64,000 bases of DNA from the NCBI GenBank assembly GCA_963969365.1, contig OZ017749.1:1550001-1614000 (forward strand). Direction: 5' to 3'. Position 1 is the first letter of the stretch; every line of letters starts with the position of its first letter. Below the pieces are notes generated by a model. The model saw only the letters and a program-made list of their open reading frames with translations. It was not told the DNA's origin and searched no databases. Position numbers and translations under genes: made by a program. Shown in pieces: positions 330 through 50,600 of this stretch. Source of the DNA: Asterochloris sp. CNOR1 (Eukaryota; Chlorophyta; Trebouxiophyceae; Trebouxiales; Trebouxiaceae).

Positions 330-1967
330 ATGAGATCGACAGCATCTTATCTGAGCGCTCTGCTTGCGAACACGAAGCCAGCCGCCGTCTCAAGACAGAG
401 TTTCTGCTCCAATTTGACGGTGTGGCCACCAGCAGCAACAGCATTGTGGTCATTGGGGCCACCAACAGACCTCAAGAGCTGGACGATGCCATCAGGCAAG
501 CCCCTGTCTACAAGTGCAAATATTCATGGGGTTCTGCTGGGTTGCTGTATGGACTTTGGGGGGAGCCAGGGGCCGGGGGACAAGCAACTCACAGCAAGCC
601 CTAATCAGGTTGGGACCGCAGAGGTCGCTCGCTGAGTCTGTGTCTGGCAACTGCTCAAGCCAAAGCAGCGCTGCTGTGATATTGCTGAAGCCAAAGCATT
701 TCTGCTGATGATGACTGGCATGAGGTCCTCCTGATGGACCTAAGGGCTGCACAGCACTATTGAGCGGGTTTGGCTGATGTTAGCAGCTCCACCCAGGTGT
801 GAATCCCTGTGTCGCTGGATGTACTTAAATGCCTGTCAACCCACTTCTGATTGCCAGTTCAGCACTACAATATATGGTGAGGTGACTGCATCTTGTCAGA
901 CTGTCAGCTTTAATCGCCCTCTTGACCTGGCCTGCTTCAGTTCCTTCTGTTGGAAGCACTTTATGTTGGGGCCAGCAGCTGCCATAGTGCTCTTATTGCT
1001 GCTTGCAGGCTGTGCCTGCTGAAGCACATCTACCGGACCAGTTTGAGGCCAGACCTTGCTCTGCTGACACAACTGCTTGCAAGCGGCGCCTGCTGGCAGC
1101 ACGCTACATAGAGCTGCCTGACTTTGCTGCTCAGCAGGGCCTGCTTGGCGATGTTTGTTCACCAGAGCCTGCTCAGCACATGGCCCACAACTGCACTGGA
1201 GCAACTCAGATGGTGGCATTGCTGCCTGCAGATGTATGGTGAAGCGCATCTACTCCTCTGCTAAAAACAGCTGAGCCTGCCCAGCAGAGCCTGTTCAGTC
1301 CACTGCAACACATATAGGCCTCTGCACTCCAACCTGCCATCACTGTTGTCTGCAGGCGACGCCTAGTAAAACGCATCTACATTCCTCTGCCCGACAAGGC
1401 TGCCCGCCAGTGCCTGCTCGCAAACATACTGGAGGGGCAGGCCTGCTGCCTGACAGGCCAACAGCTGCAGCAGCTGGTTCAAATGACTGAGGGCTACTCT
1501 GGCAGTGACATCAGCGCACTCTGTCGGGAGGCGGCAATGATCCCCATCAGGTGTGCTGAGGGAGTCCAACTGCTCTGGTGTGGTAAATAGTAGTATGCTA
1601 GGTGTATGTGGACTCAGAGCTGCTGGCTGTCTCTGTAGAGGCTCCAAACCTGCAGGACACTACGGGGCTGTGCTGTCTGTCACACAGCTGGCTGCAGTAC
1701 AAGTGCTATGTAAGGCTCTTGCAGGCACTGAGCTGGATCTGGCTGATGCTTGACCAGCCTGCTTTTCTGTCCCGCGGCTCATGTGTGACATGGGTTTTGC
1801 ACTGCAGGGAGCTTGGTCCTGCAGTCGCCACAGTCTCAGCTGAAAGAATTCGCCCAATACAGGCAAGCGATTTCCAGGCTGCCCTGCTGGCCATCAAGCC
1901 CAGTGTGAACCAAAGCCAGCTGGCTTTGTTTGAGCAGTGGACAGAGGCTTTTGGGACCGCGTCGTGA
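330..1967 (+). CDS. FIGNL1: Fidgetin-like 1 (FIGNL1) AAA ATPase, C-terminal part (gene starts left of window)
   Basis: Three exons close in phase: 330-495, 1356-1550 and 1808-1967 (stop TGA). The first carries Walker B (DEID) and sensor 1 (VVIGATNRP). The second starts [18 protein letters not shown] and has [20 protein letters not shown] followed by ALCREA. The third ends with the AAA C-terminal helix ([10 protein letters not shown]). The CCL...YSG stretch and this tail are typical of FIGNL1 rather than spastin or katanin (family knowledge). FIGNL1 is a nuclear hexameric ATPase that removes recombinases and limits meiotic crossovers. The Walker A exon and everything before it lie outside the window or in sequence I could not resolve in 1-329. 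The first intron uses a GC donor (AG|GCAAGC). Both introns contain decayed copies of the exon that follows. Identity is strong; the 5' boundary is open. Confidence 0.85.
1078..1215 (+). pseudogene. Decayed copy of FIGNL1 exon 1356-1550 inside the preceding intron
   Basis: The + strand reads [19 protein letters not shown] then GLL, collinear with [18 protein letters not shown] then CLL of the true exon about 278 bp downstream. The match fades after about 25 residues. Shorter copies of the AARCGCATCTAC core occur near 1019 and 1241. It is preceded by TTGCAAG rather than a strong acceptor, so it is probably not used. Confidence 0.7.
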
Positions 1968-3154
1968 CGCAATGTCAGTGTTGTCACCACTGTGCTTGTG
2001 CTCACATGTCCATCATCATCACACTTGACTTGCATACCTAGTCCTCAGCCGTCTACATAAAAACGCAGTTGCTCACCTTGGGATGCAAACCTTGAAGCAA
2101 CAATTTCATGAGCTTTGTCTTAGGTGGAGGAGCTGAATGAGTTTGCACTGAACCTGCACATACCCTGCTAGCTGGCTGCCCCGGCAAATCTAGCTGGCTG
2201 GCCTCCAACTGGAGCTCAGGACTGTTATCAGGAGGGGCCAGGTCAGGTCAACTGCTGCCTAGGCTGGCGGGCTCTCTCTGGCGAGTACTCTCACTGCCAG
2301 CAGCACACCAGGGATCAGAGATTGGTGTGTTGCCTGCACTTTGAGGCACCAAAACACGCATTTTGTCTATGGCATTCCCCCATACCCCACGTAAGTGTTT
2401 CTGACAGGGTTGACAGCTTTGAGGAAGCCCAGCTCTGATGCTGGAGGATCAGCGGAGAGACCTTCAGTTGGATAAAGGCAACATGAGACATGATGGAGAG
2501 CCAAGCAAGGGGCAGACCACTTTGCAATGACGCTGGCATTCCCAGGAGCTCCGGGAAGTGCACGCAACATTACTGTTGCCACCAGCTATGCTTGGAGCAA
2601 CAGTGGCCACTACTGCCATGTGAAGGCAAGTATACTGCCAGCAGATGATGCATCTGGCGAGGGCCAGTGTCACAGGTGCTTCTATGCACATCTGGATGCC
2701 TTACCTTTCCCAAAGAGCATCACCGTTTGACATCCAGGCTCCCTGGGAGGACAGACAGTCAGTTGTGGCGCTGCACACATTGACTGGGGGAGCCCTCTCC
2801 ACATCCCCCACATGCGAGCAAGCTGTTGCAGATTCTGATGTTGAGAAGTCAACAACAAAGTTCTGGCATTTGGGCAAAGTGGTGCCTCAGAGAGCACATC
2901 CAGCAGTCTATCCCCTCTTGGCGCCCTATTTAATGTCCTTCGTCCCGTGTCTAAAGCTCAAGTCACCCTCACATCTGGGTCAACGGTGTTCTGTTCCCGT
3001 TGACCCAGACTGAACAACATCAGGCTATTCTTTATAACCAGACTCAATGACACGCTTTTGTGGAGATGCCGTAGGTACCAGGTCAGCCTCACCATTGCGC
3101 TTCGTCAGGTAGCTCACGCTTCATGGAACCCCAAACACATCTACCTCAGCAGGT
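1968..3154. other. Intergenic stretch, no gene resolved
   Basis: This follows the FIGNL1 stop and precedes the first recognisable cyclophilin exon. Open frames here are short and show no domain. It may hold the FIGNL1 3' UTR and the 5' exons of the cyclophilin gene, which I could not place. The only clear structure is the 12-bp inverted repeat at 2975-3008. Confidence 0.5.
2975..3008. repeat. Perfect 12-bp inverted repeat, 10-nt loop
   Basis: CTGGGTCAACGG (2975-2986) is followed by a 10-nt spacer and CCGTTGACCCAG (2997-3008), a perfect 12-bp stem. No T-run follows. Confidence 0.9.
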
Positions 3155-5691
3155 CTGGGCGCGCGAAGGGAACCAGCTTCAAGGACATCCAGAAGGAGAT
3201 GGAGCTCTTCAAGAAAACTGGCAGACACCCTGAGCTAGAGGCACAACAGCAGGCGGCAAGCACTGTGGTGCCTGCCCTCCCAGATGTGGACATGCACCGT
3301 CCTCATGTCTTCATGGACCTGCAGCAGAGCAGAAGATTGCTTGGTGCGCTGATTGCTACACGTTTGCCATGCAGGTCTCACATTGCTGCTGCAGCCATCA
3401 CCATAGCTTGCCAGATCTGATTCTCCTACTGCTGGCGCCCTTGTCTGCCACTCTAGCTACAGGAGCACCCTCCGCTCAGCACAGCGCTTTCTTGCAGGCA
3501 GGCTGGTCATTGAGGTCTTTGAGGAGCTGCTGCCTGTAGAGGCAAGGCACTTCATCACACGCTGCCAGCAAGGCAGCTCCGACTCCTTCCAGGGCACCCA
3601 GGTGCACCGGCTGGTGCAGGACCTGGCAGCCTTTGGCGGTCAGAGCAAGGAGTGAGCAGTGCAGTTGCCCAAGCTGGTGCCAGCTGAGTGGGCAGGCACA
3701 GAAGTGCCTTGACGAGCCATGCAGACACCGTGCAGGGTGGCATCACAGCACTTGCCACCATGTTGCATGATCTCGTGTTGGTTTCCAGCGCTATGCACCC
3801 TTGTTGTTGGCAAGCGCCTGGGCTTGGCTTGCCAGCAGTGCGCCTCATCAGCAGTGGAAAACCTAAAAGCGGCGAAGCAGCGGGCGGCCAGGTCACGCCT
3901 CATCATCCGCAGGCCCCAGAAGTGGGAGCTTCTGGCACTGCAGAGGGTCCAGCTGTTGGTGGCCCCTGCAGGTCTCAGAAGCGTCTGCAACTGAAGAAGA
4001 ACAAGTTCCTGCGCCATGCTGCCAGAGGGACTGTGTCCATCTCCCTCACTGGCAGCGAGTTTGCTCTGGCGCTGGACAGAGCCCTCACTTTGGATGACTC
4101 CTTCCAGGTGGGCGGCTCATGTGTGGAGCTGCAGGCAGTCACGTGCTGGGCTGGACAGAGCCTCCACACTACACGACTCCATTTGGGTGGGCGGCTGCTT
4201 TGTGAGCTGCAGGGCCATCACATGTCAAGCTGGACAGACCCCTCACTCCAGATGACTTCCTCAGGCGGGCAGGCTTGTGTGGGGAGCTCCAGGCTGCGCT
4301 GTGGCACCTTGCAATCCCCTGTGGTGCTCTCTGTAATGGCCCCGGCTGCTTGCTGTTGGGCAGACCTGGACAGGGGCAAGCAAGCCCATTGGAGCTTCGT
4401 GCTGGCCTTGAAAGCGGCATGAGAGCCATCAGGGACTACCTCCAGCACCCCTCGTGTAGCTGTGACGCAACCTGTGCGCATGTCGGCTGGCTGGCAAGGC
4501 TTGGCATGCTGAGGGTGAACAATGCTGCAGATGGTTGGGCTAGACAGCAGGATATCTCTTGAGCCATCACGCGCATTGTCCAGGCTGCGGAAGGTGCTTT
4601 ATCACTGAATGCCAGGTATTGACCGTGCCTCGCTGCAGGTGTATGGGCAGGTGGACCAGGGCAGCTGATGGACGAGGTCACTCGTTACCTGGCTGCATGC
4701 CAACCAATGACTCCTGCGGCTGCAGGTGGTGGGGCGCGTGAACAAAGGGGCAGAGGTGTTGGCAGAGCTCAACAGTCTGCCCGTGGACGCCAACGACTGC
4801 CCTCATCAACGGGTGACGGTGGCAGCCTGTGGGCCCACAAATTCACAGGGTAACCACGAAACCCTTGAGGAGGCCACTGCAAGGCTGGCCCGCCAGGAGG
4901 AGAGCCCTCAGCAGACGGCGGCCAGGCTGAAGGCAGAGGCTACCACCGCCAAGCAGGCTGTGCTGTGAGTGGCCAGCAAGCTCCTGCCAAGCCAAGTCAT
5001 GTCAAGAAAGGGTTCATGATGTAGGCAGAATGTGCATTGCACACATGCAGAAGGCGGGGCCTGCCACCACCTTGCAGGCTACCTTCAACTGCCTGCACTG
5101 CAGAACAGGGGAAGTCTTTGGGCAGGAGGTGCTCTGTTTTTGTGAAGACAAGGGGCCCTGTTGCGGCCCAGCTGGCCGTGCTGCACCATGCCTGTGTTGC
5201 AGGAGCAAATGCTGGCTATAGGTATGGTGGACGCAGACTGGGGCCCAGCAATGTCAAGCGGGCAGTGCTTTCATTACCCCCCACCGCTAGGCAGGGAGGT
5301 AGCCAGCACTCCCTCCCATGTTCTTGCAAGCTTTGCTGCGAAGATGCTTGGGTCGATGGATGAACTGTCAGGGAAGCATGCAGTGCATGTTGTGTATGGG
5401 AAGGCAGTGCAGGGCGCTCCGCGCCTGCATTTATGGGGCACGTGGTCTTGCGCACGAAGCCAGCTGCACGATCTCCACCCTGTTGCACATGTTGTTTACG
5501 TTGATGTTGCCAATAAGGTGTGACCTTGGTGGCACTCCTGCAGGGAAGCATTAGAGGTAGGCCTTCGGCACAAGCGCAAGGCCAATACACAGCCTGTGGG
5601 GCAGCCACACAGCAAACAGCGAGGTGTGTTTGATGACTTGTTAGAAGACAGCAGTGATGAGGATGGTGATGACGCTTGTGGTTCAGCTTGA
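3155..5691 (+). CDS. Divergent cyclophilin-type peptidyl-prolyl isomerase domain protein
   Basis: Exons that close in phase: ...-3343, 3498-3651, 3789-4107, 4726-4964 and 5544-5691 (stop TGA). The domain reads HVFMDLQQ, GRLVIEVFEELLPVEARHF, VHRLV, a Gly/Ala/Pro-rich insert, RGTVSISLTGSEFALALDRA, LDDSFQVVGRVNKGAEVL and VAACGPT. These match cyclophilin strands in order. The active site is poor: HR of the FHR motif is kept, but the QGG-type segment is altered and the usual Trp/His near the end are absent, so catalysis is doubtful (inference). Before the domain comes a charged helix (FKDIQKEMELFKKTG). After it come a coiled-coil-like Glu/Ala/Gln segment, a basic patch and an acidic end (DDLLEDSSDEDGDD), which suggests a nuclear or splicing-associated cyclophilin. 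The 5' start is unresolved; 3155 is only a possible acceptor. Confidence 0.7.
4072..4308 (+). repeat. Three tandem 79-nt copies of an exon 3' edge plus intron start
   Basis: Units 4072-4150, 4151-4229 and 4230-4308 all begin CTGGACAGA and share the later block GGGCGG...GAGCT(G/C)CAGG. The first unit is the true 3' end of the cyclophilin exon ending at 4107 plus its donor. The other two are decayed copies inside the intron. The period is exactly 79 in both steps. Confidence 0.85.
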
Positions 5692-7191
5692 CAAATGTGA
5701 CCTGCTGCATGCTCCTTCCCCATGGCCCTCTCATTTCCATTGTAAGCTTACACGCCATCAGACCATCAAGATGGACATTCATCCAATATGGTTTTGTCAA
5801 AGTGCCACAGATTAGGGTCAGGCATCATGATTTACAGGCAAGTTGACAGGCGATCGTCCCCACTTGGCGGCCCCAGCAGCTGCAGCAGCACAGAACATCC
5901 TGCTGTGACATCACACATCACTTGCATGAAGCTAATTCAAGGTCTATTGCCTTGTACTCATTGCAACATGTGCGCGCTTGGCTTGTCTGCCCGGAGGCAG
6001 GGTGACTCTGTACAGCAGGAACAGGAAAATATAATTGTCAGCCCTGAGCAGAGACCCTGTGCAAAAGCAGCTAGGTTTGCTGTGCTGGCACCCCGCCTCT
6101 CAGGTTCAGGCATGGTGCAAGGCTGTATGATTAGCTGGCTGCTGCCCTCTGCACAACCCCCTAAAGCAGAGCAGTGCTTGTGCACTGCAGGCCCCACTCT
6201 GTGTGACAGATGAAGGCATAGGCCTGACTGTGATGCTGTGCGAACAGAAACCTGTGCGTATGCACTGCAGGCCCCCACCTCGTCTGCCAGATCAAGGTAC
6301 AGGTCCTGGACAAGCGTTTTCTCTTACGAAAGTGCCAGGCTCTGGAAAGGGCATGGTCTCTACCTCCCAGAAAATGCCCTGCAGCCACAGGCAGAAACAC
6401 AGCTTGGATTGGGGCTGCCTCAGGAGCTAGCAGGCAGTGTGCACAAAGTAAAGCCCTGCGTGAGCATCCAGCACGCAACCTGAGATGACTTGGCTGCAGC
6501 AGCAGCCCTTGCAGCAGCAGCCCTTGCAGCAGCAACATGGCTGCCTCCCCACCTTGCACTCCTGCAGACTGACAATGGGGTCATTGTTGCTGGCTGTGCT
6601 GTGCCTGATGTATGGCAGTCCTGTCTTCGCGCCCACTCCCAGTCATCTGGCAGCAGCAACCAAGATGGGGTCACCAACAGCGCCTGCCTGGCTGCAGCAG
6701 GCAAGACAGGGTCACCAATTGCCTGCTGACACATCAGTCGTCTTATTATGTGCAGAAATGGCCCTGAATCCAAGCAAGCTGAGTCGGCCCCCTGGGTTCA
6801 GAAGAGCGGCCCATTGCCTGGGGATCCTTGCGCTGGCACATGGCTGCTCCTGCAACCAGGAGGGGTGACCAACAGCGCCCGCCCGGCAGCAGCAGTGCCG
6901 GCTGACAGGCATGCGCCTGCAGTGGAGCTGCCTGGGTGAGCAGGCTGCCGCAGAGCAGCTACACACATGTGCACTGCGCTGTCCCCTGACATTGCAGCCA
7001 GCCGCATATTGCAGCAAGGGCACACCTGCATGAAGGTCTTAGTGATGCTCTGCACTGAGCATTGAGACCCCTCACAGTGCCGGTCATCAGAGTTGCTGCG
7101 ATTTGACTCCAGCCAGTCTGAGGTGGGGGTCCCGCCGTGGCCTATCAAACACACAACATAGGCAGAAGGCTACCCTTCATCAGCCTTCTCT

Positions 7192-7550
7192 CAGACCTGC
7201 AGTCAAAGGCAGATCACGCTTGTCACAATCAATGAGCTAGTCCTGCACGGGATTGGCTGGCGCATGGGCAGCTGGTAGGCTGCTAGGAAGGGGCTGGCCC
7301 TCATCAACTTTCTCCATGATTAGTAGCATGGCCTGAGCATGCGCTCTGAGGGTGCAGCCTAGGTTGATCTGCTGCCACAAACCTGCCCACTGCTTCACTT
7401 GGTGAGCTGGTCCCCAGCAGGCGTGTCTGAGACCTGCAGTCAAAGCCACATCATGCCATCTTAATCAACCAATTGGCTGGAAACTGACGAAGGTTGGACG
7501 CATGGGCAGCCGAGGGGTTGTCCCTCATCAGCATTCCCTGTGACGATCGA
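7192..7550. repeat. Degenerate direct repeat, period about 238 bp
   Basis: AGACCTGCAGTCAAAG occurs at about 7193 and again at about 7430. Each copy is followed in the same order by an ATCA-rich part, a GATTGGCTGG/AATTGGCTGG block, GCATGGGCAGC and a CCCTCATCA block. Spacings differ, so both copies are old. Confidence 0.65.
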
Positions 7551-8241
7551 AGGCTCTTGTGGTGCCAGCCAGCATGCTGCAAAGGGTGTTTTGGAACCGG
7601 ACCTCGAGTGTGGCCATGGCAGCGTCTGCTGCCTCATCCACCCTGTGGTGTGGCCCTGGAGGTGGTGCACAACAGCAAGCTTGGTGGCAATTAAAGGCTG
7701 GAGTGCTACCTAGTGTTTGTGCGCCCTGCACCAAGCAGCATTCTACACAGCCCAGCTGGCTGACAGAGATCACTGCCCCTCCCCTTCTGCTCACAGGCTG
7801 CCCATCCGATGCTGCTGCATTCCGCATTGGGCTGACAGTCATCACAGGCAGCTCGCCTGAGCATAGCTGCAATCTCTGGGCCCGGCATGAGTGGGGGCGA
7901 CCCATTCATCCAGTACAGCTGCATCTTACGCTGCACGCCGTGCCTGCTGCCGCCCGGGCATCTTGCAGAAGTTGAGGCTGCCGCATTGGCGCAGAAGACA
8001 GCTGTCGACGCTGCTGCAGTAGGCCGCCAGCCTGTGCAACCCACAGACATGCAGCCGCCTCCTGGCGGGTTGCTGCTGCTGCCGCCCAGATGAGCACTTC
8101 AAGGGCGGCTTTGCACTTTTGCTGCGCCCTGCTCTGAGGCTGGCCGGTGCCGGTCTGTTTTGCTTTGGAGTCCTCGCAGCTCTTCGCGACCAGCTGCAGC
8201 TGTCAGACAAATGCCCGCAAGCTCGCAGATCACATTACTTC

Positions 8242-11500: not shown

Positions 11501-11590
11501 TGCAGGTTGTACCTATAAAGTGTGTCAGACCATGTGTGCGGGAAGTTTGTAGACTGGGTGTGCAGATTGTACCTATAAAGTGGGTCAGAC
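11501..11590 (+). repeat. Two 30-bp direct repeats, 60 bp apart
   Basis: TGCAGGTTGTACCTATAAAG plus TGTGTCAGAC (11501-11530) and TGCAGATTGTACCTATAAAG plus TGGGTCAGAC (11561-11590) differ at only two positions. Each includes a TATAAAG box-like string. Confidence 0.85.
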
Positions 11591-12594
11591 TGCATGGGAG
11601 CCAGCAGCATGCATAGCAGCTAGCAGGGCTGCACGCATCACAGGGAACACAAGAGACCGTCATTGGAGGCTGGCTAGCTGTGGACTGCTGATTGCTTGAT
11701 GCAGCAGCTGCTTGTGCATCTGAAGCGTCATCGTGACTGCCATCTGCCTACATTGAGTGTGCTTAGAGGGTGAGGCTGCCTGCAGTGCAGAGGCATCTTT
11801 GCAGGGTTGCCGTGTTGCTACATGTGTTCAGGCATTGCCTCGCCGCATGCAAGAGGTCCAGGGTTGCCTTGACCATGCACAACAGGTGTTGAGCTGCTAA
11901 CTCCCACATAGCGCAGCAAATGTAGCCCAAGCGTTAGCGCACAGTGCTGTAAAGGGCGGGACTCACCAATGAGCAGCACTGCAAGCTCTGTGTCGATGCC
12001 CGCAGTGAGCATCCCACCTTGCGACCATGCACCACGCCACCCTCGTCCCCACTTACAGTGAGGCTCTTTCCTGCATTGCTATACGTACAGTATACTGCAG
12101 GGCAGGCAAGTGTGCGTTAGACGGGATAAGAGCCAGCTGGCATGCATAGCGACTAGCAGGGCTGGCATCTGTACAGAACTTGAGAGACTGCATCAACTTG
12201 CAGGGCAGGCAGATGGCTGAATCTTAGCATTGCAGCAAGCACTCACATACCGCAGCACATGAAGCCCAAGCGCTTAGCAGGGAGCAGGGCTGGCATCTGT
12301 ACACAACATCAAAGACTACGTCAAAATGCAGGGCAGGCAGAGGGCTGAACCTTAGCGTTGTGGCGCTCAACAACACAGCATATGTCCAGAAGCCATACCG
12401 GGTCATCGCCACTGCCAGCGTACTGTCTCAGTTCTGCCAGCATTGTGGCGCCAGCCAGCAGGTCGGTGCGTACCTGGTCACCCTGCCACAGGCTGCTCAA
12501 GCTCAGGGGCCAAAGCAACCGGAAGCCACGGCTCTGACCTCTGTTCCAACTGCAGCCAGGAATTAGATTATCAGGACAAGGGAAGGATTGGGGA

Positions 12595-37300: not shown

Positions 37301-40300
37301 GCAGGCCTCGTTTGGACAGTGTGGAGCACCATTCATGCTTCAGGATGGCGCCCCAGCTGGAGGCTACTGTGCTGCCACCTGCAACCGGTGCGCATCAGGA
37401 GCATCACCTGCCCCTGGCATCAGCCCATCACCAGCTGTGTCAGCTGCCTCGCCAGGTTCACCTGCGCTGGGGACTACAGCAGCACCACTGTCGCCAGGCT
37501 CCAGTCTGCCACCACCCACCTCAGCTAGCCCCATGCCATCTGCCACACCTGGGCCAGGTGCAGCCGGCAGTACCAGCCCTTCCACTGGCACAAGCTCCCC
37601 TGCTGGGTCACCTGCAGCCTCTCCCTCGCCACAAGCGGCACCTGCAAGCCCAGTCGGCTGCCCAGATGTGTTGCCGCCAGGCTCCAGCTATACCTGTGCT
37701 CAGCAGGTGAGCTGTTGCCCTGAGTTTGCCAAGCACAATGGGCTGGGTTGCATTTCTCCTGAAGTCCCTGGCAACTGAATATCATGCTTGCCTTGCATCT
37801 GATTAGCTGGCTGCTGCAGGCGTCGTTTGGACAGTGTGGAGCATCATTCATGTTCCAGAGCGGGGCCCCAGCTGGAGGCTATTGTGCTGCCACCTGCAAC
37901 CGGTGCCCTTCAGGAGCAACAGCTGCCCCCAGCACCAGCCCATCACCAGCAGTGCCAGCTGCCACGCTGCAACCACCTGCGCCGGGCATCACACCAGCAC
38001 CCCTGCCTCCAGGCTCCAGCCTGCCACTGCAGAATGCAGCTGGCCAGAGCCCTGGACCTCTCATGCCAGCAGCGGGCGCAGCTGGTGGTACCAGTCTTTC
38101 CCCAGGCACAGGCTCCCCTGCTGTGACAGGCTCACCTGCTGGGTCGCCTGCACTCTCGCCAGCCCCCCAGTCAACCACAGCAAGCCCAGCAAGCTGCACA
38201 GACCAGCCACCGCCAGGCTCCACATACAGCTGTGCACAGCAGGTTGGTGGAGCTCAACATTGAGAGTATGTGGCTACTTTTGGCCTTGCAACCATGCCCT
38301 GCTCTTGTAGAGCCACACTGAATTGGCATCTGCTCGAGCCATCTGCATTTTTGATCATTCTTGTTTGCGATATGAACAAGTCTGAACTGCAGGATGTGCC
38401 TGCTTGCAGGCTTCGTTTGGTCAGTGTGGGGCCGCCTTCATGACTCAGGCTGGAGCACCAGACGGGGGCTATTGCCAGACCTCATGCGGCCGCTGCCCAG
38501 GCGTTGCTGCAGCGCCCAGTGCTGGCAGCAGCCCAAGCCCAAGCCCAACCTCTGCCAACACTGCAACAGGGTCCAGCCCAGTGTTGGGGGCTAGCCCAAC
38601 GTCTGTGGCCGCCAGCAGCCCAACCTCTGCCACCCCAGCGCCTATTGCCAGCTCCACTCCTGCCGGAAGCTTGAGCCCTGGCACAACTTCAAATGCTTTG
38701 CCTGCAGCAGGCCAAGGGTGTACTGACCAGCCACCCCCGGGTTCCAGCTATAGCTGTGTACAACAGGTTAGTCCGAGAAAGGGGTCCCTGCTATGCTTGG
38801 GAAGCTGCTTCCTGGCTCACAGCATTGTCCATTCCTCACAGAGGCTCCCTGAGCAAACACTCTATCTTGAGTTATGCCTTTGCAGGCTTCATTTGGCCAG
38901 TGCAGCGCGGCCTTTATGACTCAGGCTGGAGCACCAGACGGGGGCTATTGCCAGACCTCATGCGGCCGCTGCCCAGGCGTTGCTGCAGCGCCCAGTGCTG
39001 GCAGCAGCCCAAGCCCAAGCCCAACCTCTGCCAACACTGCAACAGGGTCCAGCCCAGTGTTGGGGGCTAGCCCAACGTCTGTGGCCGCCAGCAGCCCAAC
39101 CTCTGCCACCCCAGCGCCTATTGCCAGCTCCACTCCTGCCGGAAGCTTGAGCCCTGGCACAACTTCAAATGCTTTGCCTGCAGCAGGCCAAGGGTGTACT
39201 GACCAGCCACCCCCGGGTTCCAGCTATAGCTGTGTACAACAGGTTAGTCCGAGAAAGGGGTCCCTGCTATGCTTGGGAAGCTGCTTCCTGGCTCACAGCA
39301 TTGTCCATTCCTCACAGAGGCTCCCTGAGCAAACACTCTATCTTGAGTTATGCCTTTGCAGGCTTCATTTGGCCAGTGCAGCGCGGCCTTTATGACTCAG
39401 GCTGGAGCACCAGACGGCGGCTATTGCCAGACCTCATGCGGCCGCTGCCCAGGCGTTGCTGCAGCACCCGATGGTGGCAGCAGCACAAGTCCATCGGGCA
39501 GCAGCCCAAGTCCATCTCTTTCCAGTCCAGCAATGGGGTCAAGCCCAGCGGCTGAAGTTGGATCAGCGCCTGGGGCTGTCAACAGCCCAACCACCGCCAG
39601 CCCCGCTCCTGGTGTCAATTCAAATCCTGCAATCAGCCCAAGCCCTGGCACACCACCCACTCCTATACTCTCCACACCCCAGGGGTGCACAGACCAGCCT
39701 CCCCCAGGCTCCAGCTACAGCTGTGCACAGCAGGTCGGCAGCATGTTTGTTGTGAGGCAATTTGTTGTCAGGTGCATTGCACGCCTGCTTTGCTGGACAA
39801 GCTGCTGAGCCCACAAGGTCTGAATGCTGTGCAGGCCTCATTTGGACAGTGCAATGCAACATTCATGGTTGGCCAGGGATCCCCCACTGGTGGCTACTGT
39901 CAGACAACATGTGGGCGCTGCCCAGGGGTGCCAGCAGCGCCTGTGGGCGGCCCATCTTCTATTGCACCTGGCACAAGCCCCTCACCTGCGCTTGGCTCAA
40001 GTCCCTCTCCTGCAGCTGGCATGAATCCCTCTCCCTCACCAACGTTGCTGCTGTCACCCAGTCCTGGCAGCACAGCTGCTCCTGGCAGCAGCCGTCTAGC
40101 CGTCTGCAGTGATCTGCCACCCCCAGGCTCCAATTACACCTGTGCACAGCAGGTGTGTCCATGTTCTTACTGGAGCAGCTGAAGCTTGCATCTGGTTGAC
40201 AGCTTCACTGCCTCATTTGCCTGTGGCTTGAGTCTGCAACTGAGAGCTTGAGGCTGCAGATGAGAGCACAAGGGTGCTGCTGGGAACACCAGGCCGCTGC

Positions 40301-43300
40301 CGAGGGCATGGGCGGGGAACGGAAGACTAACCACATGACTTGAAGCTGCAGGCATCTTTTGGACAGTGCAATGCTACATTCATGTTCAGCACGGGCTCCC
40401 CTGCTGGTGGCTACTGCCAGACAACATGCGGCCGCTGCCCGGGCGTGCCAGCAGCTTCAGGGATCAGCCCAACTGCAGGCACCAACCCAGCAGGAGTTGC
40501 AGGTGTCACTGCATCTCCCATGCTGAATGTGTCTTCACCAGCCGGCACCAGCCCATCACCTGGATCGGCAGCAGTTGGAGCCACCTCTGCCCCCACCACC
40601 ACACCAGCAGGTTGCACAGACCTGCCGCCTCCAGGCTCTAGCTACACCTGTGCCCAGCAGGTGAGATGTGGTTTTGTAATTGTGCAGACTTCTGCCACAT
40701 CAGATCTCCGAGCTGCCCATGCAAAGGCTGTGCCTGTGTACCGCAGTCGTTGCTTCTCTCTGCAGGCCTCGTTTGGACAGTGTGGCGCTGCATTCATGTT
40801 CAGCACGGGATCGCCTGCTAACGGCTACTGCCAGACAACATGTGGGCGCTGCCCAGGGGTGCCAGCTGCGCCTCTGGAAGGCCCAGGCTCTGCTGCAGCC
40901 AGCACAAGCCCCTCTCCTGGAACAAGCCTGTCTCCAGCAGCTGGTGAAAGCCAATCTCCAACAGCTGTTTCAAGCCCAGTCTCAGCAGCTGGTGCAAGCC
41001 CTGCACACCTTTCTCTGGCACCGGGCACAAGCCCCTCTCCAGCAGCCAGTGCAAGCCCCCCTTCAGCAGCCGGTGCAAGCCCCTTTCCAACACCTGGCAT
41101 CAGCCCCTTTCCCCCTGCTGTGCCGTCCTCATCACCTACTCCTGGCAGCACATCTGCTCCTGGCAGCAGCATCCCAGCTGGCTGCACAGACCTGCCACCA
41201 CCAGGCTCCAGCTACACTTGTGCTCAGCAGGTAAGACGCTGATGCTGGACACAAGGTGGTTGCTGTGGTAGTGACATGAGGGGCTGCATGTGTGCTGGCA
41301 TGATGTCTTTGCAGCATGACATCTCACATGCCCAAGCGAGGCAGCGCAAGCACAACTGTACCCATGTCAAAGCCTCCGACTTGAGTAAGCTTGCCCGCAG
41401 CAGCACCCTAAGTACAGCAGACAAGCTGAGAGCCTCCAACTTGAGAAAGCCTGTTTGCCACAGCAACATTGAGCTGCTCATTATGCAGGCATCTTTTGGG
41501 CAGTGCAATGCCACCTTCATGTTCAACGCGGGCTCCCCCGCTGGTGGCTACTGCCAGACAACCTGTGGCCGCTGCCCAGGGGCGCCAGCAGCACCAGGCA
41601 CCCCGTCATCACCAGCTACATCACCAGGCTCTCCGGAACTTTCACAAGTAGCCTCGCAGACCTCATTATCACCAGCAAGCACACCATCCACGCCAGCATC
41701 GCCATCGCCAAGTGCTGCCGCTGGGAACATGCCGTCACTAGGTACAAGCTCTTCACCTGCACAGAGTGTTTCGCCAGGGACAGCGGCTGCCACCAACAGC
41801 CCAGCAGCAGCAGGAGCACTCTCTCGTGGCATGTCTCCAGCTCCAGCCACAAGCACCCCGGCCAGCCCAAGCCTCCCAACAAATGGCTTGCAGAATGTTG
41901 CGGGGACGGAGCCACTCCCTCTGCTGACCACCAGCCCAAATTCCTCACCTTCATCAGCTGGTGAGGACCTTTGCCTGACATGAAGCTTAGCACCTGTCTG
42001 CAAACATACCTGGATGCACGTGCTCTGATGTCTGCCAGGTTGGGCGGAGGCAACTTGCTTCAAAGCAGGTGGCTAAGCACCTGCTTGCTCTCTGCAGGTG
42101 GTGCCAGCCCAACAGGTACAGCCTTGCCCACTGCGTCAGGGCTAGCGCCGCAGCAGAGCCCAAGCGCCACCGCACCAGGACCGGGAAGCACCACAGGCAT
42201 TGCGGGACCAGCAGGGCCTGTCTCGGCAGGCCAGCCAGCAACCAGTTCAACAGGCTGCACTGACTTGCCACCACCAGGCTCCAGCTACACTTGTGCTCAG
42301 CAGGTGTGTGCTGTCTGCGCTAGCAATGCTCCTTATCAAAGCAAGTGCTCTGGCACGTTGAAGCAGGTCTTTGTAGTTCCAATTCTGAGGAGGCTCAGCG
42401 TGAATGGCGACTCAACCTGGTCCAGCGCCCTCTCCCAGTTCGCAACATTCATTTTCCGTGCAGGCATCTTTTGGGCAATGCAATGCCGCCTTCATGGTCA
42501 GCACAGGATCCCCTGCTGGTGGCTACTGCCAGACGACATGTGGGCGCTGCCCAGGGGTGCCAGCAGCGCCTGTGGGCGGCCCAGCATCAAGCACAGCTGG
42601 CACAAGCCCCTCTCCCTCCGCTGTGCCATCCTCACCACCTAGTCTTGGCAGCACACCTGCTTCTGTCAGCAGCGCCACAGCAGGCTGCAGAGACCTGCCG
42701 CCGCCAGGCTCAAGCTACACATGTGCTCAGCAGGTGCGCCTGTCTGCAACATGGTGCTCAGGGCCTCTGTAAGCAGGTGCTCTGACCGTTTGCAGCAGTG
42801 TCTCCTCTCCCGCTCTATCTGGAAGCTCGATATTGGCCAGTTGTCCTAGCTGAGCAATCTTCTCAGCCAGCATCGCAGGTTGCAGCACCATATGATGGTC
42901 AGACTATGTGCATGCAGGCATCTTTTGGGCAGTGCAGTGCAACCTTCATGTTCAGCATGGGCTCCCCTGCTGGAGGGTACTGCCAGACCACTTGTGGACG
43001 CTGCCCAGGGGTGCCGGCAGCGCCAGGCGCCGTGTCCTCCTCACTATCTGCCTCACTACCAGCCCCAGCACAGCTGCCTGCAGCATCACAAACATCCCCA
43101 TCTCCAGCCATGAGCGAACCACCAGTAGCAACGTCCCCAGCAACATCTGTGGCTTCAGGACCCAGCACAGCTGCTGCCGTTTCACCTGGCCAGTTACCGC
43201 CTTCATCAGGCGTTGCTGCTGCTACTGGCAGTCCGACAGCCACAGCAGGAGCACCATTCAGCAGCAGCACTCCAGAGCCAGCTTCCCCCACTGCGGCCAC

Positions 43301-44533
43301 ATTGTCACCCACTTCCAGCCTCACACCTGGCCAGGGGTCTTTGCCAGGCTTGGCACCTGCCACTGCTCCCCCAGCGGCCTCAGCAGGGGCACCTGCCAGC
43401 GCTGGCACCATTGCCACCACTCCTACTGGCTCCACTCCTGCTCCTTCCAGCTCCACTGGGCCAAATGGCCTACAAGATGTTGGACAGACTGAGCCGCTCC
43501 CTCTGCTGACACCCAGTCCCAGCATTATCCCCACAGGTGAGGACGATGCCATGTCAGCTGTTTTGAGCTCTTGACTCAAAGTTATGGCTTGCCTCCCCTA
43601 AGGGGTTGGGCAACGTCGTATGGTGCTGAGCAGCCACCTGCAGCTTGCTGACATGGATCCATCTGTCTGCAGGTGCATCAGTCCCTCCACCAGCCCCACC
43701 TACCACTATGTCATCCGCACCAGCTGCTTCAGGGCCAGGAGCTGCACCACCCACTGCAGCACCCACCCTGAGCCCTGCTGCTGTGGCAATGGCAGTGCCC
43801 CAGACACCTCAACCCACTGTGCCATCTTCATTGGCTGCTCCAGGGCCAGGAGCTGCATCAGCAACAGCAGCACCCACCCTGAGCCCTGGCGTCGTGACAA
43901 CGGCTGTGCTCCAGACAACACAAGTGCCGGCCTTGGCTCCAGCCGCCAACACGTAAGTCCCAGGCTGACAAGCTCTGTGCAGTGCAGACTGCAAGGCAGC
44001 ATCAGGAAGCAGGCCAAACTGGTGACGTCTGGCTTTCACTCTGCAGGATTGATTGCTGCTTCTATGGCGTCAACATGGCCTACTTTGGCAGCGGGCCAGG
44101 CAATGTCAGTGTGGTGACCAGCAACTCTACTGTGCCATTGCTGCTGGTCTGCAACACCAACAATACCTTGATATGGCAACCCAGCAGCTTTGTAGTCACC
44201 ACACTGGGCAGCACAGCCTCTGTGGCCAACCTCTTTGATGTAACGCCATCTGAAGGCGGGCAGAGCGTGTACGTTCTGCAGGTTCAGACTGCCGCAAGCT
44301 ATGTGGTGAGTTCTGGCAGCCATTGCTGACTGCTACCTGGTTGGACAAAAACAGGCTGCAGGCTGAGGCTCAAGTGCGTGCTGCAGGGAACCGTGCAAGT
44401 GGGACTGGCCAGCCAGTCTGTGCAGACCTCCACAGACATGCAGCTCCCTGTGCAAGCCAGTCCGCTGGCGTACTTGCGGCAGCAAGCAGTCTCCCCAGTC
44501 CAGACGACAGCAACAGATTTTTGCCAACAATAG
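34355..44533 (+). CDS. Very large secreted Ser/Pro/Ala-rich protein with eleven ShK-like modules
   Basis: Twenty-four exons, first 34355-34414, last 44387-44533 (stop TAG), close in phase throughout and total 7,257 nt (2,418 residues). MGRLPLAWLTAAVAALLLVE is a signal peptide. An N-terminal globular region of about 480 residues with paired Cys (exons 2-8; VVGCQNLTLNMDGG, SWYFSFPQDARQ, FTYACSCCGLFGPDSGGCG) is followed by eleven repeats of CxDxPPPGSxYxCAQQ-ASFGQCxAxFM...GGYCQTTCGRCPG, the six-Cys ShKT-like pattern, joined by 40-130-residue linkers rich in SP, AP, TP and GS. The C-terminal part (exons 23-24) is again globular (DCCFYGVNMAYFGSGPGNVS). Such linkers are hydroxyproline-glycosylation sites in algal wall proteins, so a cell-wall or matrix protein is likely (inference). 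Each module is cut by a phase-0 intron exactly between CAQQ and ASFGQ. Modules 3-5 include a 476-bp tandem duplication. ShK folds also occur in toxins, but this motif is a common chlorophyte extracellular module. Confidence 0.85.
38440..39391 (+). repeat. Perfect 476-bp tandem duplication (one exon plus one intron)
   Basis: Bases 38440-38915 and 38916-39391 appear identical base for base. The unit holds most of exon 12, its intron and the first part of the next exon. A third partial copy continues past 39391 for about 70 bp with one change (39417), then diverges. The duplication keeps the reading frame and adds one ShK-like module. Confidence 0.93.
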
Positions 44534-44831
44534 CATTCGTTGTTGGTGACACCAGGCACCTCCAAGCCCTCCATCAGCATCTATGACTTGACCACCAGCA
44601 GTGAACGCATCAAAGTTCTTGCTTTTTTCCCTTTTGAGTGCTACAGGAGATCTATGCTGCAGCTGTGCAACACTGGTCTTCAAACATTACTGTACGCCCA
44701 ATCTCATAGAGATGCCATTCCTGTGCATGGGGTCATGTCAAATGGTTTCATTCACGTTTGAAAAGCATTGTAGAAAGGCAGAGCCAGAGCGTCTATAGTC
44801 ATCACACAAGCAGAGAGCAGTCTTGAGTTGT
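44534..44831. other. Convergent 3' flanks
   Basis: The stops of the ShK-like gene (+) and SDE2 (-) face each other across about 300 bp. No other feature is seen; a TGTAGAAAG string at 44769 is a weak poly(A)-signal candidate. Confidence 0.5.
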
Positions 44832-47524
44832 TTAGTTCTTCTTGGCAGGCTTGTGCTCAGCAGCGATTTTGGCCAGAGGGGTACCCTTCAGCAGGAAAAG
44901 GCGGGCAGCTCGCTGCTCCAGCCGACCACCACACTTCAGGCCCAGCCTCTGCAGCTCGGCCTTAAGCACATCTAGCCCCAGGGACTCCAGCTCCTGGGCG
45001 CTGCCAAAGGCATTTAGGTCCACATGTTTGTGCTCTGCTGCTGGGTCTTCTGGCGGCTGCGCCACAGCAGGCTGCTTGACAGCGGCGGCTGCAGCAGGCA
45101 GGCTGGCCACATTCGCTGCAGCTGCTGCGCTCAGACCTGTGGGGCTGGCTAATGCAGCTGCAGCAGAGCTGGCCCCAGCCCCGGGACCAGCGTCCTGTTC
45201 GGACCTGTCACTGCCAGTGCTGACTGCCGGAGCAGAGGGCGACCTGGCAGCTGGGGCTTTGGGAGCCTGGGATTCAGGGGCCTGCGCGTCAGGAGCCTCC
45301 CCGCCAGCATCCTCAAACTCAATCTCAGAATCTGAGCTGTCAGTGGAGCTGCCGTCGTCCATACCCATGAAGTGACCACGCTTAGCGGGTGCACCCCCAG
45401 CTGGTGCATCCTTGCGCTTGCGGTCTCCCAGGGGCAGCTGCTCGTGCAGGCTGCTCAGCGCGGCCTCCACGGCTGCCTCCACACGAGCAATGGCCTCCTG
45501 CTTCTCTGCTCTCACAGCCTCTGTGTCAACCTGCATCATCAAGAGATAGGTGGTGATGGAGGCAACAGTTGTAGCATTCGTGCTCCTGCCCTCCTTCCTC
45601 AGCTCGGCGTCCATGGTCGCTGCAAGAAAGGTTCTGATCACTTGAGCACTTCTGCCACCACAGTGCTTCAGCTTCGATGACTTTGGGACAGAGAGGCCGG
45701 CCAGTGAGCAAGTACTGCTGAGAACAAACAGAAGCACAGCTGTCAGACCCTGAGATTTCAGCACCAAGGGCAGGCCGTTGGCTGACCTACCAGGCTTGCA
45801 GAGGGCAGCAGCCCGATACCCTGACATTCTGTCATGATCACTGTGCATTCAGGCAGCAAAGGTTCCTGGCCCTAATGCAGCCTGCAGCATGACCTCTGCT
45901 TCACACTTGCATGCTGTTTTGGCAAAGCACTGCTTGGGGGCCTGTCTTACCCCTGGAGTTGGCATGCTGCAGCCAAGCCACGTCAGGGTGCACACCTGAG
46001 CATGCCTTTCGCTGGTTCAGGTGCCATCCCTGCAAGGGAAATGAACCCGCCAACACACAGCAAGTTGCACATCTGAGACCGATTCTTCAAAGCAGCAGCC
46101 CTCCTGCACTTCCTCCACACAGCTGAGCCGCCACACAAAGCACGTTTCAAGCGCAGTCATCAAAACGCAACCCACTCCTTGGACCCTGCAGCGAAGCCCA
46201 CGCACCAAAACCCCTACTCTGTCACTGCAGCTCAATTCTGCTCCTTGTGAGATCAATCATGCAAGCAGTTACTGCACCTTCCAAACTGCAGCTAGCCACC
46301 ACACTATTCACGCCATCATCAGAAAGCAGCCCACTCCTCTGAGCAGCTAAGCCTGCTGACCTCTTGACATCCTTCTCCGGTGCTGCAGCCATCTTTAGCT
46401 GGACCCTTCTGGCATTACCCAAGCAAGTGGATGCTGCAGCTGAGCTTACAACGCACACTTGATGCTTGTCCAGGGCTGAAGCCCTGCCCTTCACACTTCC
46501 AGCAGGCAGATGCTGCAGCTGAGCAGCAGCAAACATCACACCTGAGCGCATTTCTCCAAGGCTGCAGCCCTCTCTTGTTCCTTTTGATGCTTAAGGGCAA
46601 TCTTTTCAAGCTCCCGCTCCCCGGCCTCAGCGGCCCACTCCGCCAGCTTCTTCTCTGCACTGGAGTGCCGGACACGTCGCCCCAACAGGTCCTGCAGCAG
46701 GTTTTGATATACCGCTCAGACATGCCAACATCTTCTCTGCGATTGCATGGCACGCCCTGTGCCCCTGAGCAGTGTGCCGAGTCTAGCGCCACAGCAGGTC
46801 CTGCAGCAGGCACCCACTGCTGCACTGTGGCCCCTTTCTCAGGATGGCTTGGGCCCCAGGCACCAAGGCAAAGTCCTGCAGAGCAACTGGGGCTGTGTAA
46901 TTAGTGACACTTGGGCGGCTTGCCAATGCTATGGGTCCTTGGCTGAGACTCTTTGATAAGACAAAAGGTAGAGGGTCCACGCAGAGGCCTTTGAGCCCAG
47001 AGACAGCAAGGTCCCACAGCAGGGCCGGGCACAAAGTGCACTCCATCTTTTCGAGCTGCTGTGGTGTATCAGGGCTGATTTGTCCTGCCTGCTTGGTTGT
47101 GGGCAGCTCTGATGACCAGCTGGACTACTGCTGGTCAATTGGATGGGTCAGTGCTCACCCGGCAGGCATCAGTGTTGCCAGACTGGATAGCTCTGCCAGC
47201 GCCACGCAGCAAAGATCCGAAGCCTCCCTTGCCTCCGCACAGGCGCAGCGACAGCCTGATTGTGGCCTCTGAGGTGATCCCACAGCTGCTGAGCGGTCTG
47301 TGTCCATGCAGCAGCTTGCCAGCGTAAGTGAGAATCTGCTCATCAGCTGGGATGCTGGTCCTGGCCTGCAGATGCATGGGAGCATGTTACCTGGTGCACC
47401 TGGATGAGTGGCGTAGCCTGCAGAGGTCGAAAGTCACCTGAACAGCCTGCCTTAAGGTGTCCACGTGATCGTCATTTTGAAGTTCCAATGCCACCGGCCT
47501 CTGCCATTGCAAGAAGATTTGCAT
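44832..47524 (-). CDS. SDE2: SDE2-like splicing/genome-stability factor with N-terminal ubiquitin-like domain
   Basis: Exons 47438-47524 (ATG), 47159-47365, 46542-46691 and 44832-45530 (stop TAA) close in phase and give 380 residues. The ubiquitin-like domain starts [16 protein letters not shown] and ends LRLCGG, followed by [13 protein letters not shown]; the GG~KGG junction (residues 73-75) is the site where SDE2 precursors are cleaved to the active Lys-starting form (family knowledge). Next come [20 protein letters not shown] and a Glu/Lys coiled coil, an acidic and Ala/Pro-rich middle, and the C-terminal SDE2 SAP-like domain ([20 protein letters not shown], then [20 protein letters not shown]). 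SDE2 acts in the spliceosome on selected introns. The long last intron (45531-46541) and the second one hold decayed copies of exon 3. Its start lies 90 bp from the GrpE start on the other strand. Confidence 0.85.
46774..46806 (-). pseudogene. Decayed copy of the 5' edge of SDE2 exon 3
   Basis: The minus strand reads CTGCAG then codons for DLLWR-stop-TRH, matching CTGCAG plus DLLGRRVRH of the true exon at 46691. It lies about 109 bp upstream of that exon in the transcript. Confidence 0.65.
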
Positions 47525-47614
47525 GCTGAGCAGAAGCTGGCGTCGCAGTCCGCAGGAGGTCTCCCCAGAACCTTCTTTGTCACTTTGTCTTCTAGCTTGA
47601 CCACCAAAATACAA
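47525..47614. promoter_or_regulatory. Shared divergent promoter region of SDE2 and GrpE
   Basis: The two start codons point away from each other and are only 90 bp apart, so both 5' UTRs and the core promoter must lie in or across this stretch. No TATA box is evident. A TCTTCTTTGTCACTTTGTCT-type pyrimidine-rich stretch lies near the GrpE side. Confidence 0.65.
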
Positions 47615-50600
47615 ATGACCACCATGCATGTCCCTGCTGCAAGCAGTGCTCTGCAGCCAGTGTCACCATGCAGATGCGGTCGTCTGCCAGTTAGGCAATT
47701 CGCAGTCAGCAGATCCAGGACCAGCCATGGCTTCCACGCTAGGCCAAGAGTCGAGAGAGCAGCACACAGCAGGAGATTGTCTCCCTGCCTGGCTGCCCGC
47801 AACAATGAGAAGGTCTGTGACAATGCATGCCGGCCTCTCCCTGGTGATGAAAGCAACGCCGTGCTCTACAATGTCGGCTGGCAGCCCTTGAGGCATGCCT
47901 GGTGATCTGCAGCAGGCTTCTGGACGCAAGCAGGAGGATGACCCAGAAGAAGAGGTCCCTCCGGATGCAGCAGCCTCCCCCGGGTGTGTGCCACTTGTTT
48001 GGCTACTCTGTTGGCTGCAGCCGCTGTGCTCCCCTTTTCTGAATACAACGCTGCACCTTCTTCGAGCTGCATCAGGCCCTCAAACATGAACCAGACAGCA
48101 TGCAGACCACTTGGCTGACTCTTCTGCAGCAGAGTCTCCTTCAGGTTGTGCAGCCATCATGCATGCGCCCTTGTCTGTAGCAGAGCTGTCGCATCTTCGA
48201 TGTGATGCTGTGCAGCCTGCTGCAAGTCTTTGCCATCAGCAACAACATGGTCACCTTTGCAGGGCAGCAGCAGAGGCAGCTGCAGAGGCAGGGGGCAGCG
48301 GCCAGGATGCTGGCAGCATGCCAACTTTCTCACAGCTAGTGCAGCAAGCCAGGGACGCTGCCTCAGGGTCAGATGCAGAAGCATCACTGGTGAGCTGCTC
48401 CTTCGGATTGCTGCCTCAGGTTTGAGATGCTAGCAGAGACTTTGTAGGCATGTGATCCCCCACCTCCAGGTTAGATGCGGAGGTGCCACCTGCGTGCTTG
48501 TGTGGCCGGCTGGTCCCCACACGTAGTAGCCTCGATGTCACCTGCAGAGGGACCACTGACAATGTTGTGTGGGGTTGCTGCACTTCTGAGCCCTCATAGT
48601 TGCAACCTCAGGATTAGCTGCATACGCATTGTTGGTGAGCGGAGCTTGCTCAACCTGAGGACAATGCATGAGACTGTCACGGCTGTGGATTGAGGCTACT
48701 GCGTCTGCGCCCGCATGGGCCGCTGCAGCCGCTCTCTTCCTTGGTGTATGAGCAACTGCCCATGGCCATTCCAGGCGGTAAGAAGCATATCTGGCAGGCC
48801 CTTGAGAGCAAAGCTGGCCTCTGTCTGCCCTACCTAGATGTGCAGGCGGATCCACCATAACCAACTGCTTCCTGCCATGCAGGCTGGGGTGCTGTCTGAC
48901 ATTGAGAGCGAGTTTGCCGGCATGGCAGCGCAGCTGGCAGAGTCTGACACACAGGCAGTTGCCCGGGAGGCTGCCGTGCGGGTCTCCAAGGAGCAGTGGA
49001 TCCGCCTCAATGCGGACTTTGATAACTTCAGGAAGCGCACGGTGCGAGCTGCAGTCTTAGAGTGGCAAATGCCGGTCAAGGTTCCTGCCTGGGTTTCAAT
49101 GCGGCCTGCAGTATGCGTTTTTGAACCCATGAGGCCAGTCTGGTGCATGCTAGGAGTCAGTGCTGTTGCAGGCATGCCAGCCATAATGCAATCATTGTCC
49201 GGCTCCTGTGTGTTGCCATGGTGAAATGAAGGCATGCTCTCAAGACTCCAGCACATGCTGTCTTTCATGCCACAGGGCCCCTCTCGAGGGAGCAGTCCTG
49301 TGCTCCCCGTGGCTCAGCAATCTTCCTGGGCGCTTGCAGGCGAACGAAAAGCTGAGCTTGAAGGCAGCAGCTACCGGGGACGTGCTCAAGCAGCTCATAC
49401 CCCTTATCGACAACTTTGAGGCGGCCAAGAACTCTGTCAAGACAGAGAACGAAGGCGAGGAGCGGGTGGCTGGAGCATACCTTGTGAGTCTGAATTGCTT
49501 GTTGACAGGGACAACTGCTGCACATGTATGAGCTGCCCCTGGCAACCCTGTCAAGATAGAGAACAGGCAGAGACTGGCAGGAGGCTACCCTTATGAATAC
49601 AGTTTGGCTGCTCGTTGGCGGGGCAGGGGGCACCTGCACATGTGACCAGGAGCTGCTGTGAGTTTCAATCACAGGGCTGATGAACGCAAAGCTGTGCACC
49701 ACCTGCTACATGCCCCAGCAGCACAGTGCGCCCTTGTGGGCCAATGTTTCCATGGGCTGCTGCATGCCCCAGCAAGGCAGCAATCCACTCTCCCAAGGAC
49801 CAGCTCTGTATTGCAAGCTGAATTGGTGCATGGTGCATCTCGTGCTGGGGCAACTGGTGCGAAGTCCTGCCTGGCCGCTGCATCAGCCTACACATGAAGG
49901 CCCCAATCCGCTTGGCAATCCCGAGTGGCCCCATCTGCTTGCTGAGGATGCATGATACAGCCAGATGCTGGGCTTGGGGAGTGGCGTGTTTGGCAGACAC
50001 TGTTATGGCTCAGCAGGTGCTGCCCTGTGCCCCTGCTCCATGCACCTCTGGTAGTGACATCCACTCCCCTGCTGCCCATGCAGAGCAGGGAAGCAAATCT
50101 TAGACTGAGAGCACCCTCATGTTGCTGTGGACCTGCCTCCAGTGCTTCTGGGGCTTTTACCTCCTTGGCCCCCTGCAGTGCTCATGTTGCATTCCCAACA
50201 GGCACATTCCTATGCACTCACACAGTGAAGATCCCTGGGGATGCGGGCCATGGCCTTTCATATCTGCAAAAATGTTGCCTGTGGTCGGGGAAAATTTTTG
50301 ACTAACCAGGCATACATCTGTCCTCTACAGAGCCTTTACAAGCAGATGGTGGAGATCTTTAGGACTCTGGGCGTGGATGCGGTGCCAGGTGTGGGGCAGC
50401 CCTTTGACCCCAACTTTCACGACGCAGTGATGCGGGAGCAGAACGATGATGTCCCGGATGGCACGGTGCTCCAGGAGTTCAGGAAGGGGTTCAGGCACGG
50501 TGACAAGCTGCTGCGGCCAGCCATGGTGAAGGTGAGGGACTTCTCATGCTCTCAGCTTAAGCAGGCAGTGGGTCTGGCCTGGCAGGGTCTGTCAATGACT

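Follow-up and report, generated by a model that had tools for sequence, protein, structure and literature searches.

Small tandem duplications produced by break repair are described in PMC8355091 as the commonest short (<100 bp) human insertions, and as abundant in species and cancer genomes. Repair-mediated capture of proximal DNA is reported in PMC2671141 to leave nearby non-tandem copies, at a mean distance of 162 bp in the proximal class and continuously over time, with a few partial exon or intron pieces among the duplications. The former class is characterised by a dependence on end joining and Pol alpha-primase fill-in, the latter by microhomology, filler or deletion at the breakpoints. 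In fly regulatory DNA, an excess of similarity between neighbouring sequences that falls with distance was read as local duplication (PMC3188502), while a duplication crossing an exon-intron boundary made an intron in a potato gene (PMC4974935, which cites Rogers, Hellsten, Gao and Lynch). Here we report on a 64,000-nucleotide stretch of the alga Asterochloris sp. CNOR1 (contig OZ017749.1, positions 1,550,001 to 1,614,000; hereafter the window), in which introns carry decayed copies, or echoes, of the adjacent exon edges. We consider it likely that a genome-wide background of short-range direct duplication explains these echoes and that exon edges are not targeted.

The analysis covered 244 kb, consisting of the window and eighteen 10-kb loci, one from each of contigs 1-18 of the assembly (56.4 Mb, 21 contigs). 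A self-trained gene finder gave 55 genes, with 432 introns in the training genes and strong splice signals (acceptor TGCAG, each base at least 91%; donor CAG/GTGAG); genes scoring <15 and exon pieces <30 bp were dropped. Pairs of similar sequences were found by banded local alignment at a score of at least 18 and a gap penalty of 4 (a penalty of 2 gave long junk alignments of 60% identity), with a ShK-repeat gene of the window masked; a blastn self-search may miss matches close to the diagonal. The same gene (36000-44800) was excluded from the echo, density, equal-target, intron-gain and tandem-remainder tests described below.

At lags of 15-400 bp the scan returned 168 direct and 13 inverted pairs, and an equal-width control at lags of 3000-3385 returned 2 direct pairs. 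In the 18 loci, 12-mers recurring at lags of 20-100 bp numbered 298 direct and 2 inverted. The same scan of 100 kb of E. coli K-12, the sole comparison genome and a bacterial one, found 5 pairs, a rate of 0.5 per 10 kb compared with 7.1 in the algal sequence. Pair identity spanned every class from 65 to 100%, and bases lying in detectable local copies amounted to 6-8% in introns, 6-9% in exons and 3-6% in intergenic DNA, with 0-0.7% in the far-lag control. The proposal that introns are built from such copies is not confirmed, only 6-8% of intron sequence lying in detectable ones. Lags were spread broadly from 15 to approximately 350 bp; the clear distance peak near 80 bp that had been expected is weak at best, the top 15-bp bin of the histogram (75-90 bp) holding 19 matches and its neighbours 15, 9 and 9.

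Direct orientation and closeness of the copies are shared with the small tandem duplications of PMC8355091; here, half of the tested noncoding pairs have no abutting remainder of a tandem unit and the repair route is a prediction. Nearby non-tandem copying as in PMC2671141 is likely in this alga too, although that study drops source-copy distances <50 bp and extends its proximal class to 5 kb, whereas the lags here lie within ~350 bp and are strongly direct. Similarity between neighbours that decays with distance is common to the fly and the alga, with a range of ~50-70 bp in the former and ~350 bp in the latter, where it also occurs in introns, intergenic DNA and exons and across exon edges. 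The potato case and the present one both involve duplications crossing exon-intron boundaries, but no new intron was clearly detected among the 400 introns tested here. Together, the four sources already cover this kind of process. Novelty may lie in the number of introns bearing echoes in this genome, the comparison genome being bacterial only; the titles listed by a literature search, thin in its coverage of subscription journals, included none on exon-edge copies in algal introns.

For the echo test, the first or last 70 bp of each exon were aligned to the adjacent intron, excluding the 10 bases beside each splice site and introns with <40 usable bp, and p values were obtained by scoring against length-matched introns of other loci. 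At p<=0.005, the own intron matched in 19 of 393 tests on the acceptor side and 26 of 388 on the donor side, compared with 4 and 5 when it was reverse-complemented. At p<=0.01, exon edges matched 4.4% of adjacent introns (n=1445), 1.3% of the next introns over in the same gene (n=1228) and 1.5% of introns two or more away (n=1721, sampled). Own-intron scores also exceeded those of dinucleotide-shuffled own introns; acceptor-side mean scores of the controls were 8.70 for other introns, 8.72 for reverse-complemented and 8.74 for shuffled own introns. Echoes were borne by 41 of 400 introns, whereas the control gave 9 of 400; the echo-bearing introns came from 24 of 53 genes and 16 of 19 loci. The exon-edge echoes are therefore real and above chance, and the claim that introns resemble their own exons more than unrelated ones, composition being controlled, is borne out for about one intron in ten. 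The pattern recurs in most loci and does not extend to introns at large. The echo-bearing genes were ordinary conserved genes in all six cases tested (RNA polymerase, P450, kinase, diphthamide synthase, dynein heavy chain, cyclophilin). Of 47 selected echoes, 26 had lags of 70-130 bp, a clustering that is partly a product of the 70-bp query and the 10-bp exclusion. Introners, in the sense of a near-identical sequence common to many introns, were not encountered, and a rare family would escape this analysis.

The 47 echoes had a mean identity of 0.77, with 243 transitions and 226 transversions. They carry donor or acceptor context, as had been claimed: the 30 intron-side bases beside them matched at an identity of 0.376 (n=32) against 0.258 for random pairs, and of 17 usable cases 9 had retained GT, while of 15 usable cases 5 had retained AG. 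A stop or frameshift was present in 24 of the 47. Intact copies include the kinase copy of locus L010 described below and one in locus L011 with GTGAG. In-frame stops numbered 9, where 17.5 were expected in random intron sequence; the copies are perhaps still partly exon-like. As a class, the echoes are copies at the DNA level, drifting mostly neutrally and mostly dead.

To compare exon edges with other sequence, all 162 matches at lags of 20-400 bp were sorted by the features that they overlap. Expressed per million position pairs, exon-intron matches (1.83; 51 matches) were as dense as intron-intron matches (1.79; 51), with intergenic matches at 1.33 (19), exon-exon at 3.05 (34) and exon-intergenic at 1.68; the 2.62 million intergenic-intron pairs held no match. 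When only pairs with an identity of 82% or more were counted, the exon-intron density (0.29; 8 pairs) was below the intron-intron density (0.53; 15 pairs). That the duplication process is specific to exon edges is mostly not supported by these densities.

Several results weigh against a uniform, untargeted background. With equal-sized targets the exon edges were favoured, E5-I tests scoring in 20 of 233 and E3-I tests in 12 of 236 cases, compared with 19 of 600 for intron-intron, 24 of 540 for intergenic and 4 of 106 for within-exon tests (reverse-complement controls: 3, 3, 2, 1 and 0, for E5-I, E3-I, intron-intron, intergenic and exons, respectively). The 13 inverted pairs, few but not nil, also exceed the 2 pairs of the far-lag control. 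Births per bp per unit divergence formed no single burst but were uneven, being lowest (4e-4) in the youngest class and highest (2.3e-3) at 75-80% identity. Third codon positions of echoes differed more than first and second ones (mismatch 0.230, 0.198 and 0.275 at positions 1, 2 and 3), and 23 of the 47 copies were unbroken across the aligned stretch. The gene models, being self-trained, are imperfect; the SDE2 gene is absent from them, as is the GC-AG intron of FIGNL1, and a cyclophilin intron is split.

Local copying had further been proposed as a route to intron growth and, where a copied AG/GT is recruited, to intron gain. Growth by local copies is suggested by the length of the echo-bearing introns (median 402 against 231 bp), although detection also rises with length. 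Gain by duplication of an exonic AGGT would leave two similarities at a lag of one intron length: the intron would start like the downstream exon and end like the upstream one. Among 400 introns, those <60 bp having been dropped, none scored 12 or more on either side, where 0.3 and 0.5 would be expected; exact repeats spanning the splice sites were as frequent as expected. A marginal low-score excess was seen on the donor or upstream side (49 against 35 at a score of at least 7, 1 of 100 permutations; 10 against 5 at a score of at least 9, 3 of 100). The other side showed none at a score of 7 (44 against 39, 21 of 100 permutations) and a hint at 9 (9 against 5, 6 of 100). Old intron gains could be hiding in the low-score excess; recent ones were not observed, and intron gain by tandem duplication was set aside. 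The near-empty result limits how often this route has recently made introns.

Of the other explanations, one holds that TGCAG- or CAG-rich DNA gives look-alikes everywhere. The strength of the acceptor consensus speaks for such a composition artefact, as does the fact that the echoes picked by eye in UGDH and MsrA become only suggestive under control. Own introns nevertheless outscored other introns, reverse-complemented and dinucleotide-shuffled own introns and other introns of the same gene, and the scan gave 168 pairs against 2 at far lag. The shuffled, reverse-complement and far-lag controls refute composition as the source of the bulk of the signal, and we consider this explanation extremely improbable. 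A mechanism tied to splicing or transcription that copies exon-intron boundaries into introns, enlarging and seeding them, would account for exon-edge tests scoring 1.6-2.7 times more often than intron-intron tests on equal targets, for the donor and acceptor context of the copies, for the greater length of echo-bearing introns and for the marginal donor-side excess at a lag equal to intron length. It is hard to reconcile with a density per position pair that is the same for exon-intron and intron-intron matches and close to that of intergenic ones, with the lower exon-intron density at 82% identity and above, and with the absence, in 400 introns, of a copy scoring at least 12 at a lag equal to intron length; such a mechanism appears highly unlikely. 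Under the preferred reading of an untargeted background, decay of one partner only would predict the exon-edge excess of the equal-target tests, and is presumably the cause of the higher exon-edge match rate. Exon-edge copies would catch the eye because selection preserves one of the two partners.

The echoes might also be decayed or live alternative exons, left by tandem exon duplication for mutually exclusive splicing. In this direction point approximately four exon-plus-intron units ~140 bp apart at 480-1060 of locus L023 (minus strand), of which by eye the first and last look open and the middle two broken, like a decay series in a single gene, and a 91% copy of the end of a kinase catalytic-loop exon at 1900-2059 of locus L010 (minus strand; lag 94), which keeps its frame and an intact donor and could, judging from the sequence, be a live alternative site. 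The 23 unbroken copies point the same way. Stops or frameshifts in the other 24 and a change nearly even over codon positions argue against it; copies keeping frame and coding constraint were not found as a class, single copies possibly differing, and alternative exons are a very improbable general explanation. A closer competitor is pure tandem duplication with no displaced copying, in which the DNA between two copies should match the DNA beyond them. Such a remainder was present at z>2 in 10 of 44 exon echoes, in which the intron part is expected to decay twice as fast, and was carried by the cyclophilin echo and an RNA-polymerase echo (L019:4909). Of the 42 noncoding pairs at lags of 40-400 bp (shorter lags were dropped), 19 were contiguous or had a remainder, 2 were doubtful and 21 had none. 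In simulated tandem duplications at three indel rates, the remainder was absent in only 155 of 1019, 152 of 814 and 122 of 629 detected cases (15-19%), which makes a purely tandem origin rather unlikely. Tandem and displaced direct copying probably both occur, although the numbers are small and later deletions, or later splitting of a tandem unit, could mimic a displaced copy. The original prediction of repeated local tandem duplication of exon-intron boundaries is accordingly retained as regards local duplication followed by decay, but the process is not edge-specific and is probably not only tandem.

In the proposed mechanism, stretches of some tens to ~150 bp would be copied in the same orientation to a position ~15-350 bp away, with exons, introns and intergenic DNA all receiving such duplications steadily. 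Some events would be plain tandem and others would leave unrelated sequence between the copies, which would afterwards drift mostly neutrally. Where an event spans an exon edge, selection would keep one copy as exon and the other would decay in the intron together with its splice-site context. Since decay then affects a single partner, exon-intron pairs would remain recognisable for a longer time than intron-intron pairs and would look like a special class. The most likely molecular route would be error-prone repair, by fill-in plus end joining, where nicks or breaks lie close together, along with same-strand template switching or slippage. Because selection holds one partner still, exon-edge copies may allow local duplications to be dated more reliably than noncoding pairs do, and through them an eye-catching pattern becomes measurable. 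We offer only as a tentative and rather doubtful extension that in this algal lineage short-range direct duplication, seldom inverted and non-tandem in about half of cases, runs at a rate that makes it a main origin of new DNA in introns and between genes, with exon-edge copies serving as a clock from which the growth of introns and, in rare cases, the rise of new splice sites could be read. Should the rate prove unusual, such genomes would show introns growing from local DNA without transposons.

Six genes of the window had been named as bearing echoes, and their edges were tested with hand-curated exons, counting tests at p<=0.05. FIGNL1, cyclophilin, SDE2 and GrpE pass, while UGDH and MsrA are suggestive. 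A family check of the window proteins recovered MsrA, GrpE, the AAA parts of FIGNL1 and UGDH (5 of 5 proteins tested). In FIGNL1 one of four edge tests passed (p 0.001), with the following features:

330..495, plus strand: FIGNL1 exon ending ...ELDDAI (Pfam AAA), contiguous with exon 1356-1550 against structure 3d8b; boundary read from sequence
1009..1083, plus strand: candidate decayed copy 1 of the exon start, behind CTTGCAG; score 10, p 0.086, alone not significant
1084..1165, plus strand: decayed copy 2 of the exon start, acceptor now TTGCAAG; lag ~273, 71% over 42 bp, p 0.0003
1232..1300, plus strand: decayed copy 3 of the exon start, behind CCTGCAG; lag ~122-124, 68% over 60 columns, p 0.0003
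1356..1550, plus strand: FIGNL1 exon, the preserved copy (Pfam AAA, structure 3d8b)

The intron at 496-1355 has a GC donor (CAG/GCAAGC) and a TGCAG acceptor, making it a GC-AG intron, which a GT-only gene model misses. The joined exons of FIGNL1 and of GrpE align to 3d8b and 4ani, respectively, and neither alignment has an insert where the exons next to the echoes meet; the FIGNL1 copies in 496-1355 are therefore intronic. Cyclophilin passed two of four edge tests (p 0.001 and 0.048) and GrpE one of four (p 0.001):

3972..4107, plus strand: cyclophilin-type exon (Pro_isomerase) ending ...DRALTLDDSFQ, donor GTGGGC
4146..4293, plus strand: two more tandem copies of the cyclophilin exon end and donor side, unit ~80 bp; lags 80 and 158, p 0.001
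49340..49483, plus strand: GrpE exon ending ...EERVAGAYL (Pfam GrpE; structure 4ani)
49544..49589, plus strand: decayed copy of the GrpE exon end, donor GT changed to AT (read from sequence); lag 114, p 0.001, remainder z 2.5

The cyclophilin copies lie inside the curated intron, in the stretch that the automatic model splits, and have a tandem remainder of z 9.4. The SDE2-like gene, whose name is the label of the original prediction and is predicted only, passed one of two edge tests (p 0.001):

46542..46691, minus strand: SDE2-like exon behind CTGCTGCAG, read from sequence
46764..46810, minus strand: SDE2-like acceptor plus start of the exon, copied at lag 109; the part beyond 46787 and a stop codon were read by eye
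46074..46103, minus strand: end of the SDE2-like exon, decayed copy at lag 469; p 0.001

On the acceptor side, 46678-46701 resembles 46787-46810 at 92% over 24 bp. This lag-109 copy shows only with the acceptor context; the exon bases alone gave p 0.03 and another best match. The UGDH echo is suggestive, with one of 14 tests passing (none of 8, then one of 6 with added introns; p 0.004, the same edge giving 0.015 in the genome-sample test), as is the MsrA echo, with two of 10 (one of 8, p 0.028; one of 2 added, p 0.019). Two genes outside the original prediction were tested in the same way: a transporter passed three of 24 tests (p 0.003, 0.006 and 0.018) and what we take to be a GT61-like gene none of 10. 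The best of 120 listed relatives of the window's transporter, 83% identical, bears the JGI label Astpho2/Aster (Asterochloris), and Trebouxia, Myrmecia bisecta and Coccomyxa are among the named ones that follow, as fits a lichen-type green alga near Asterochloris.

A perfect 476-bp duplication in the ShK-repeat gene had been placed at the young end of the same decay series. It is listed here together with two local duplications elsewhere in the window:

38404..39493, plus strand: ShK-repeat gene, 2.3 copies of a 476-bp unit of exon plus intron, attributed to unequal exchange
7178..7510, no strand assigned: local direct duplication at lag 237 (72%), in none of the named genes
12144..12384, no strand assigned: local direct duplication in a weak gene model; lag 128, 77%

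Between the first and second 476-bp units there are 7 mismatches, all within the first 36 bp, followed by 440 identical bp, a pattern that fits unequal exchange between repeats of the gene. From this sequence pattern, we judge the duplication to be probably a recent unequal exchange within a repeat gene, a separate process. The gene itself is long (36290-44060), with many ShK-like repeats (a label taken from the original prediction), many of them split by introns, and proline- and serine-rich linkers with 24-bp repeats; a single 41-exon model across it is not trusted.

Overlapping local duplicates cluster at 11501-12384 of the window (lags 60, 128, 353 and 532), in or near a weak gene model, and resemble a decayed minisatellite. 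Long C and G tracts occur in the window at 16576-16605 and 27599-27642. Among the 18 loci, L021 has the lowest GC content (52%) and, by eye, helicase-like open frames.

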